Below, one piece after another: positions 15,629 to 17,741 of a stretch of 32,667 nt of DNA. Both the position numbers and the translations under genes were made by a program. Below the pieces are notes generated by a model, which was not told where the DNA came from, did not search any database, and saw nothing but the letters and a program-made list of their open reading frames with translations. Origin of the DNA: an uncultured Acidobacteriia bacterium (lineage in GTDB: Bacteria; Acidobacteriota; Terriglobia; Bryobacterales; Bryobacteraceae); contig CAITIX010000050.1 of the NCBI GenBank assembly GCA_903892565.1, forward strand, positions 1-32,667. Reading direction: 5' to 3'. Position 1 is the first letter of the stretch. Each line of letters starts with the position of its first letter.

Positions 15629-16249
15629 TTAACTGCGAACTAACGCAAGAAATTCGTCGCGCGTGGCTTTCTGCCTACGGAATCCGCCGAGCATGGTGCT
15701 GGTGATGGTATCGGAATGCTGCTTTTCCACGCCGCGCATCATCATGCAGAAGTGCTGCGCTTCGCAGAGCACGCCGACGCCGCGGGGCGACACTACTTCG
15801 GCCACGGCTTCGGCGATCTGTTGCGTCATGCGTTCCTGCAATTGCAGGCGTCGCGCGAACATATCCACGATGCGGGGAAGCTTGCTGAGGCCGATGACTT
15901 TGTCCTTCGGCAAATAGGCGATGTGAACCTTGCCGAAGAACGGAAGCATGTGATGTTCGCACATGCTGAAGAACTCGATGTTCTTCACGACAACCATTTC
16001 GTCGCAGTTCACGCTGAAGAGCGCGTCGTTGACGATATCCTCGAGGCGCTTGTCGTAGCCGCTCATCAGATAGCGCATGGCCTTTTCGTAACGCTCGGGC
16101 GTTTTGACCAGACCCTCGCGAGAGGTGTCCTCGCCCAAGAGGCCCAGAACGTCTTTCATGCGCGCGGCAATCTGGCCTGGAGGTGGAACTTCCGTGGGTG
16201 TGTTCTTCTCCGAACGGGGAATCATCTTCAGTGCCGTTTTTGATCTCAT
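15629..16249 (-). CDS. folE: GTP cyclohydrolase I
   Basis: A 206-residue enzyme that converts GTP to 7,8-dihydroneopterin triphosphate, the first step of folate and of tetrahydropterin synthesis. The zinc ligands are C97 and H100 ([10 protein letters not shown]) and C168 ([11 protein letters not shown]), and the active-site run [20 protein letters not shown] is intact. The N-terminal 25 or so residues are a variable lead. ATG 16249 is chosen because it lies just after the stop of the upstream PTPS gene; longer readings would run far into that gene. It is last in an operon of two PTPS homologues and folE, so the product may be passed to them. Confidence 0.95.
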
Positions 16250-16251
16250 GG

Positions 16252-16659
16252 CTAGTTCTCGGTTTCCAATTCGAATGCGTTTCGGGCCGTCTCCGCAATG
16301 CGCACACGCATCAGGCGCGCGGGTAGCGTCCATTGCGATTTCAACATTCCTTCAATGGTGACCGCCAAGTTTTCCGTGGTTGTCACTTGATCTTGTAGTT
16401 CCTCGACCTCGGTGTTTAGATCGCGATGATCCACGCGTTGCAGCACTTGCGTTTCCACCAAAGCATCGAGCGCGGCGCGGTTCACGATCTGGCCGGAAGC
16501 GTCCAAGGGACCGTCTACGGTGACATCCAGCACGTAATCGTGACCGTGGCCGTAGGGATTATTGCACTTGCCGTACAACTTGGCATTCTGCTCCACACTC
16601 AACGCCGCTGTATTCAGGCGATGAGAGGCGACGAAGCGATAGCGTGAGGTGAGTTGCAT
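16252..16659 (-). CDS. 6-pyruvoyltetrahydropterin synthase homologue, complete active site
   Basis: A 135-residue PTPS/QueD-fold protein. Zinc ligands are H13 (VASH), H38 and H40 (GHGH). The catalytic Cys is C32 in [11 protein letters not shown], the same context as animal PTPS, and the DHRDLN and IAETA segments supply the Asp-His pair and the substrate-binding Glu. It should convert dihydroneopterin triphosphate to 6-pyruvoyltetrahydropterin or, as QueD does, to 6-carboxytetrahydropterin; the choice cannot be read. ATG 16659 is used since relatives begin just before this point; longer readings overlap the upstream gene. It is the middle gene of the pterin operon, 7 bases after its paralogue and 2 bases before folE. 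Confidence 0.9.
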
Positions 16660-16666
16660 GATGGTG

Positions 16667-17074
16667 CTAGCTTCCGCAGTCGACGTAGAGGTCGGCAGTT
16701 TCGTAGAGTCGGACGTTTTTGAGACGCGCATTGGGCACGGTGAGTCGCGCGGCCAGCCTGCGCCAGATTTCCTGCGCGATGTTTTCGGTTGTGGGAATCA
16801 CGGTGTCGAAGGGCGGGACTTCGCGATTCAGAAAACGGTGATCCATGGGATCGACGACTTCCTCGTTGATGATTTCCTTCAAGACGCGTAAATCGAACAC
16901 CATGCCGGTGACGGGATCGGGTTCGCCTTCCACGGTCACCTCCACCACATAATTGTGGCCGTGCCCGTGGGAATTGGCGTTGGCGCCGTAAATGGCGGCG
17001 TTTTCCTCGGCGCTCCAGGCGGGGTTGGCGCACACGTGGGACGCGGAGAACTCGGCTTTTCGAGTGAGTAGCAT
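16667..17074 (-). CDS. 6-pyruvoyltetrahydropterin synthase homologue lacking the catalytic Cys
   Basis: A 135-residue PTPS-fold protein, the same length as its downstream neighbour and alignable with it without gaps around the active site. Zinc ligands H13 (SASH), H38 and H40 (GHGHNY) are kept, as are the DHRFLN pair and the Glu in RLYETAD. At the catalytic Cys position it has Asn32 (YGANANSHGHGH against [12 protein letters not shown]). It may catalyse a different side-chain reaction, or form a mixed assembly with the intact copy. ATG 17074 fits family length; the frame upstream consists of HRT repeats and is probably untranslated leader. Confidence 0.85.
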   Translation of the reverse strand: MLLTRKAEFSASHVCANPAWSAEENAAIYGANANSHGHGHNYVVEVTVEGEPDPVTGMVFDLRVLKEIINEEVVDPMDHRFLNREVPPFDTVIPTTENIAQEIWRRLAARLTVPNARLKNVRLYETADLYVDCGS

Positions 17075-17222: not shown

Positions 17223-17741
17223 GTGAACCGGCAACTGGACCGAATCTTGATGGCAGCCATCGCCGTGATGGCGATTGGCCTGGTATGGGTTGTTTCTGGC
17301 GTGTTGGAAGCCCACGTGGTGAAAGCGGGCGATATGGCGCCGGATTTCCGCATTGTCACGGACTCCGGGCGGACTGTGACGCGCGCCGATTTCGGCGGAA
17401 AGCTGCTGGTTTTGAACTTCTGGGCTTCGTGGTGCCCGCCGTGCGTGGAGGAAACTCCATCGCTGAATGCGTTCCAACAGCAGTTGAAATCGGACGGCGT
17501 GGTGGTTTTGGCTGTCAGCATCGACGCGAATGAAAAGCTGTACAAGCAGTTCATCGAGCGTTATAAGGTTCAGTTCAACACGGCGCGCGATCCTGAGGGG
17601 AACATCAGCGCGAGCTATGGAACGTTTCAGATTCCGGAGTCTTACATCATCGATACGACGGGCCATGTGCGCGAAAAAGTCATCAGCAATACGAATTGGA
17701 TGGATCCCGAGTTTATTGCTCGCGTGAAATCGCTGCTGTGA
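17223..17741 (+). CDS. TlpA/ResA-like membrane-anchored thioredoxin
   Basis: A 172-residue thiol-disulfide protein. One N-terminal membrane helix (about 9-28) anchors it, with the thioredoxin fold outside the cytoplasm. The redox site is W70-C71-P-P-C74 (NFWASWCPPC), followed by VEETPSLNAFQQQL, and the cis-Pro region reads QIPESYIID. Relatives reduce cytochrome c apoproteins or other periplasmic disulfides. GTG 17223 is the only reasonable start and has a -10 box six bases away. It overlaps the GlcD-type gene by 4 bases (GTGA), so the two are translationally coupled. Confidence 0.92.
   Translation: MNRQLDRILMAAIAVMAIGLVWVVSGVLEAHVVKAGDMAPDFRIVTDSGRTVTRADFGGKLLVLNFWASWCPPCVEETPSLNAFQQQLKSDGVVVLAVSIDANEKLYKQFIERYKVQFNTARDPEGNISASYGTFQIPESYIIDTTGHVREKVISNTNWMDPEFIARVKSLL

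Follow-up and report, generated by a model that had tools for sequence, protein, structure and literature searches.

A tandem PTPS gene pair in Acidobacteriota with reciprocally retained active-site residues: an apparently relocated cysteine in Bryobacterales and a possible split enzyme

In characterised PTPS, Cys42 is contributed by one chain and Asp88-His89 by its neighbour. Two trimers packed head to head make up the enzyme, and its zinc sites lie between adjacent monomers (PMC7546909); the title of Burgisser 1995 speaks of an intersubunit catalytic triad. The motif CxxxxxHGH defines PTPS-II, and CExxHGH is the motif of the hybrid PTPS-I/III proteins that serve both queuosine and folate (PMC5041015). 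In the PTPS-III of Plasmodium, the Glu38 enzyme, a change of Cys to Glu at the active site changes the product (PMC2229834). Bacterial PTPS with single or dual domain structure are the subject of Kong et al. 2006, going by its title, and parts of the reciprocal pattern described here may already be in print there. No description of a PTPS heteromer or of a relocated PTPS cysteine was found among the matches listed from the open-access literature. Deoxyhypusine synthase, whose fold is unrelated to that of PTPS, offers an analogy from another reaction and is used here as an analogy only. In trypanosomatids its active form is a heteromer of an impaired and a catalytically dead paralog (PMC3663545).

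The window (the whole stretch of DNA that was analysed, 32,667 nucleotides from an uncultured Acidobacteriia bacterium) carries two PTPS genes followed by folE. Read from the open reading frames and the sequence, the order on the minus strand is a PTPS paralog with Asn at position 32, a paralog with Cys at position 32 and then folE, with 7 bases between the first and second copies and 2 bases between the second copy and folE. The initial annotation had described a tandem pair of 135-residue PTPS proteins packed with folE, one of which has Asn for the catalytic Cys and keeps the other catalytic residues. The open reading frames, Pfam and the alignment to rat PTPS all agree with this description. 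The features are as follows.

16667..17074, minus strand: first (upstream) PTPS copy, P0002, Cys15/Asn32 type; 135 residues plus stop, from Pfam and structure match
16252..16659, minus strand: second (downstream) PTPS copy, P0001, with the PTPS-II motif CxxxxxHGH; 135 residues plus stop, from Pfam and structure match
15629..16249, minus strand: folE, GTP cyclohydrolase I; PF01227, E 2.8e-74, the sole match in the genome
17030..17032, minus strand: Cys15 codon of the first copy, two residues past zinc ligand His13; from sequence, Cys in 91/94 distinct Bryobacterales-type first copies
16979..16981, minus strand: Asn32 codon of the first copy, the canonical catalytic Cys position; from sequence, variable in Bryobacterales
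16838..16843, minus strand: Asp78-His79 codons of the first copy; retained in 162/162 first copies or domains
16564..16566, minus strand: Cys32 codon of the second copy; retained in 160/161 second copies or domains
16426..16431, minus strand: Asp77-His78 codons of the second copy; intact in the window, often lost in relatives

Both copies belong to the Pfam PTPS family (PF01242, cut-off 22.4 bits), with 119.5 bits and E 1.1e-34 for the first and 84.7 bits and E 6.4e-24 for the second. The best solved-structure match of the first copy is 1b66, rat PTPS (E 2.5e-32), and the alignment places Asn32 of its motif GANANSHGHGH opposite the Cys of GKCNNPNGHGH. The second copy is best matched by 3i2b (E 7.9e-27), which we take to be human PTPS, and its motif C-NNPYG-HGH has Cys at 32 and fits CxxxxxHGH. 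Both copies keep His13, His38 and His40, the Asp-His pair and the C-terminal Glu, and both have the PTPS-II residue set of three zinc histidines, Asp-His and pterin Glu. Cys15 of the first copy had gone unmentioned in the initial annotation. Scores against the broad PTPS model NCBIfam TIGR00039 are 85.9 and 71.8 bits, under the cut-off of 125.5, and a third PTPS protein of the source genome, on contig C87, also falls under it at 90.6. The QueD/PTPS-I model NCBIfam TIGR03367 (cut-off 89.25) gives 48.4 and 69.8 bits for the pair and 109.1, a pass, for the C87 protein. Neither window copy contains the CxxxHGH motif of QueD/PTPS-I or the ExxHGH motif of PTPS-III. The CxxxxxHGH motif of PTPS-II is absent from the first copy, and Cys32 is missing from 94/94 distinct Bryobacterales-type first copies; these first copies could belong to PTPS-V or PTPS-VI.

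The locus thus shares with rat PTPS and other animal PTPS-II the sequence family, the zinc ligands, the pterin Glu and Asp-His, as well as CxxxxxHGH in the second copy, but the animal enzyme is a single protein and here there are two paralogs. The first copy differs further from PTPS-II in lacking Cys32 and having Cys15, and the second copy, in relatives, in often lacking Asp-His. Like the PTPS-III described in PMC2229834, the first copy has lost the catalytic Cys and retained the other residues; in PTPS-III, however, Glu takes the place of the Cys and a folate precursor is made, whereas in this case the site is unconstrained and a Cys appears at another position. Fused pairs, as in the dual-domain PTPS of the title of Kong et al. 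2006, also occur in Acidobacteriota, although the pair in the window consists of two genes with a relocated Cys. A plasmid search for relatives returned 12 records, all below 60% identity, 9 of which are annotated as QueD or 6-carboxytetrahydropterin synthase.

A scan of the window found 2 promoter-like sites against 1.0 in shuffles and 5 terminator-like sites against 2.7, and nothing clear emerged. Upstream of the pair and divergent from it lies a TlpA-like redoxin gene (17223-17741, plus strand), which has a BLAST match in 78/80 related loci; to our knowledge it has no link to pterins. Conserved neighbours were clustered from 161 loci with a folE match. A gene judged truB-like by eye is found downstream in 27 loci, and no pterin reductase was recognised by eye in the first residues of the 25 largest neighbour clusters.

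Eighty related loci were fetched by a pattern search whose pattern included the Cys15 peptide. The initial annotation had asked whether the Asn copy always adjoins a Cys copy; a Cys-type copy stands next to the first copy in 80/80 of these loci, one of which (L059) has a partner that looks broken. That partner, at 5538-5729 of L059, is an open frame without the HGH part, and its first copy is intact. The pair is accompanied by folE in 79/80 loci, the stretch for L012 stopping at a contig end. Among 81 aligned first copies, Cys15 was present in 79 and position 32 held mixed residues. Since the pattern was biased towards Cys15, a separate look was taken at 17 loci of families f1 and f88 from whole-protein genome searches, 3 of which repeat earlier loci. 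Cys15 was found in 16 of these and Cys32 in none, the exception being L166. Families f1 and f88, which belong to the same order, are called Bryobacterales here because the repeated loci tie f1 to Bryobacteraceae or Candidatus Sulfopaludibacter records.

The 94 distinct Bryobacterales-type first copies have Ala, Glu, Asn, Ser, Gly, Asp or Thr at position 32 and never Cys, and at position 15 they have Cys (91), Thr (2) or Leu (1). The weight that had been placed on Asn as a meaningful residue is not supported: in Bryobacterales the residue at position 32 is free to drift, and what is both new and conserved is Cys15. Among the other pair-bearing families of the class, the first copy has Tyr15 in 55/55 and Cys32 in 55/55 distinct copies. 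Position 15 is the sole fixed difference between the 94 and the 55 when each group must reach 85% or more. The residues found in at least 95% of the 55 and in less than 60% of Bryobacterales are those at 15, at 32 (Cys in 55/55, then none) and at 29 (Phe in 54/55, then mostly Tyr); position 115 was also flagged in this comparison, from four sequences only. Apart from position 15, Cys32 alone is invariant in all 55 and falls below 60% in the Bryobacterales type.

A tree from which columns 15 and 32 were withheld groups the Bryobacterales first copies in a single clade among Terriglobia first copies (SH-aLRT 100). The tree is a quick one from few columns with many open forks, in which f18 second copies and single copies of other families fail to sort cleanly, and it was used solely for this clade. 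The gain of Cys15 and the release of Cys32 thus fall on one branch. This is a single event, yet coincidence of the two is unlikely because no other changes became fixed. At the level of sequence, these comparisons establish for Bryobacterales a single coupled switch from Tyr15/Cys32 to Cys15 with any residue at 32. The pattern looks like a relocated cysteine and not like decay.

Cys15-type first copies keep the zinc ligands in 90/91, Glu97 in 89/91 and Glu125 in 91/91, and because these residues are retained the Bryobacterales first-copy pocket seems to be in use. Cys15 is a candidate thiol of that pocket, as base, zinc ligand or structural residue. Every type conserves position 15 well, as Tyr, Leu or Cys, so its conservation alone is no proof of catalysis by Cys15. 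A single-sequence monomer model of the first copy, of low quality (pLDDT 68.0), places Cys15 just past a strand at 2-14; that of the second copy (pLDDT 35.7) was unusable.

A few Bryobacterales loci stand apart. The first copy of L166 (3775-4209) has Leu15, Glu32 and a loop two residues shorter (GLESQTHGHNY), changes that represent a further step after relocation, and its genome has folB. In L027 and L074 the first copy is Thr15/Ser32 and the second has His-Met for Asp-His, the only such pairs among the Bryobacterales loci read. L007, titled as a Bordetella parapertussis MAG, carries a Bryobacterales-type pair identical to that of G187 (f1), and the title looks mislabelled.

Nine catalytic positions were read in 166 adjacent pairs or fused domain pairs of the fetched loci, with a profile built from window-type copies and one QueD. 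Dropping pairs of identical sequence (L083, L084, L197 and L200) gave 162 distinct pairs; L003, which covers the window locus a second time, and L149 and L201, stretches of 100 bases, were also left out. Gapped residues, in the L059 second copy and in copies truncated at contig ends, stand outside the counts. Asp-His is present in the first copies of all 162 pairs and Cys32 in 59/162. Second copies retain Cys32 in 160/161 readable cases, the three zinc His in 160/161 and the equivalent of Glu125 in 160/160, and Asp-His is intact in 102/160. Cys32 is missing from one second copy only, the middle domain of a three-domain protein (L148), which also serves as first partner to the domain after it. 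The 58 Asp-His losses in second copies all lie in well-anchored local alignment. Pairing and reciprocal retention can thus be read directly from the aligned copies.

By group, second-copy Asp-His is intact in 55/90 pairs of the Cys15 type, 45/58 of the Tyr15/Cys32 type and 1/8 fused proteins. Loss of Asp-His where the first copy still has Cys32 occurs in 13/58 pairs, against 37/93 tandem pairs whose first copy lacks Cys32 (Fisher p 0.033, uncorrected for relatedness), and the coupling of the two losses is weak. In f88, 7/7 second copies read keep Asp-His though their first copies lack Cys32. The window pair has Asp-His in both copies, so the split is incomplete here.

A wider view of Acidobacteriota took in the stronger matches among 184 matching genomes. 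Fused proteins of f15 (five loci) and G005 carry Asp-His but no Cys32 in the leading domain, and their last domain has Cys32 with Asp-His no longer intact. G374 and G356 have three-domain proteins that divide the residues in the same way, the domains before the last having Asp-His and no Cys32, and an adjacent pair in G156 follows this reciprocal pattern too. In five genomes (G055, G098, G176, G192 and G278) each of the two copies sits on its own contig. Asp-His survives in one of them, from which Cys32, Glu125 and one or two of the zinc ligands are gone; its partner retains the Cys, the zinc ligands and the Glu and has Asp-Arg, Asp-Cys or Glu-Arg for Asp-His. Twenty-one loci have an unpaired copy, complete in each case (18 with Leu15, 3 with Tyr15), and no strong partner-type match was found in these 21 genomes, where the only matches besides the complete copy are 7.7e-11 or weaker. 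Two cases are misfits: G349 has a degraded second type (Asp-Cys) near a contig end for which no strong partner was found, and L141 has one complete copy and a nearby copy lacking both Cys32 and Asp-His. Two loci, L266 (1027-2613) and L148 (3337-4629), carry three PTPS domains in one open frame, with a full zinc-Cys pocket only in the last domain and Asp-His only in the first two.

The initial annotation had offered a mixed-subunit enzyme as one reading, and the reciprocal retention in 162 distinct pairs suggests that it is the best one, because the triad of known PTPS is intersubunit. We infer hetero-oligomerisation from this pattern and hold with about even confidence that the two proteins are subunits of one zinc-dependent enzyme of the PTPS-II kind, most likely yielding 6-pyruvoyl-tetrahydropterin. 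The substrate would be the FolE product, 7,8-dihydroneopterin triphosphate. The exchange of triad residues between subunits would be shared between the two paralogs, the second copy supplying the zinc-Cys32-Glu pocket and the first copy supplying the Asp-His dyad while keeping its own zinc and pterin pocket. Within that first-copy pocket the cysteine would have moved from position 32 to position 15, where we infer a catalytic use for it. Once the paralogs are mixed, loss of Cys in one and of Asp-His in the other would cost nothing at one class of site.

Two separate homo-oligomers, with the Cys15 first copy converting dihydroneopterin triphosphate, or a pterin further along the pathway, in another reaction, are an unlikely alternative. 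The first copy has its own Asp-His, zinc ligands and pterin Glu and could be self-sufficient, and the Plasmodium enzyme illustrates how a change of Cys to Glu at this site alters the product (PMC2229834). The pairing is consistent, however, and reciprocal loss extends to fused proteins, in which separate homo-oligomers seem unlikely; second copies without Asp-His would, moreover, have no triad on their own. We consider it quite unlikely that Cys15 is instead a fourth zinc ligand (His13-x-Cys15, His38, His40) in a non-catalytic scaffold that donates only Asp-His. Cys15 does stand two residues past a zinc ligand, and first domains or partners elsewhere keep Asp-His and lose Cys and often zinc ligands or Glu125, but the pterin-site residues Glu97 and Glu125, which a scaffold would not need, are nearly invariant in the Cys15 type.

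The product of the pair is probably of the biopterin type, most likely 6-pyruvoyl-tetrahydropterin, which fits the PTPS-II motif of the second copy. No biopterin-dependent aromatic hydroxylase (PF00351) was matched in the source genome, whose assembly is 95.6% complete; the family, considered for phenylalanine hydroxylase as a user of the product, is present in 20/121 class genomes. The source genome has three PTPS matches, the third being a QueD-type protein on contig C87 (L001 1495-1878) with the motif CENVHGH. It also has one match to folE, one to folK, two to Pterin_bind (one of them a folP candidate) and a QueC. The initial annotation had asked whether the genome lacks folB or queD. A folB match is indeed missing, in an assembly of 95.6% completeness that makes absence no proof, but the CExxHGH protein of QueD type is present.

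That the pair, or its first copy, bypasses FolB by making 6-hydroxymethyl-dihydropterin is very unlikely. The source genome combines the missing folB match with folK and a folP candidate, and the distribution of folB had suggested such a bypass: it is above cut-off in 54/399 class genomes, comprising 31/347 with a first-copy match and 23/52 others (lists crossed by eye), and the 31 all belong to f1 or f88. Against this, neither copy contains ExxHGH, and among QueD-type proteins in the 30 loci returned (f3 genomes and G433 left out) CExxHGH is found in 17/19 folB-lacking genomes and 0/10 folB genomes. The exceptions are G442, without the Glu, and G130, which has a CARL QueD and one further PTPS. 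The hybrid QueD motif tracks the absence of folB better than the pair does; the bypass was set aside, and a folate role for the pair is unlikely. In two folB-bearing f3 genomes, PTPS-family matches with one in-frame stop each were seen (G376:C186 and G416:C92).

The pair occurs together with folB and a non-hybrid QueD in six f1 genomes (G418, G461, G468, G483, G516 and G550). In six f88 genomes checked, the pair are the only PTPS matches in all, and QueC is missing from three, weak in one (G519, 2.1e-5) and clear in two. In these six f1 genomes, and in those f88 genomes that have no QueC match, the pair seems to be needed for neither folate nor queuosine.

Ordinary decay, with the first copy a relic, is extremely improbable: position 32 does vary widely in Bryobacterales, but throughout the part of the order that was sampled the first copy persists, and its Asp-His, zinc ligands, Glu and Cys15 hardly vary. 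The initial annotation had likewise argued against decay from the catalytic residues kept, and the zinc ligands, Asp-His and Glu retained in relatives uphold the argument. It had named random residues at position 32 together with loss of zinc ligands, or an independent single-copy distribution, as signs of decay. The outcome of that test is mixed: position 32 did prove near-random, but the zinc ligands are kept in 90/91 of the Cys15 type and no single-copy Bryobacterales locus appeared among those read.

Taken as a whole, the account is tentative, and we would put it at somewhat under an even chance: a one-event move of a cysteine to a place beside the zinc in Bryobacterales, an obligate heteromer sharing the intersubunit triad, and a split PTPS, its Asp-His and its Cys carried by different partners, that evolved more than once in Acidobacteriota as tandem, fused and separate-contig forms. 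If the account is true, an annotation of one copy by itself as PTPS or QueD, or of the first copy as dead, could mislead. The locus would then show clearly, in a natural enzyme, how a functional residue can change place inside an active site, with ancestral-type and derived-type enzymes both at hand for swaps. It would also add several apparent examples of paralogs that have lost complementary parts of their active sites, and would point to an unassigned pterin product in Acidobacteriota.
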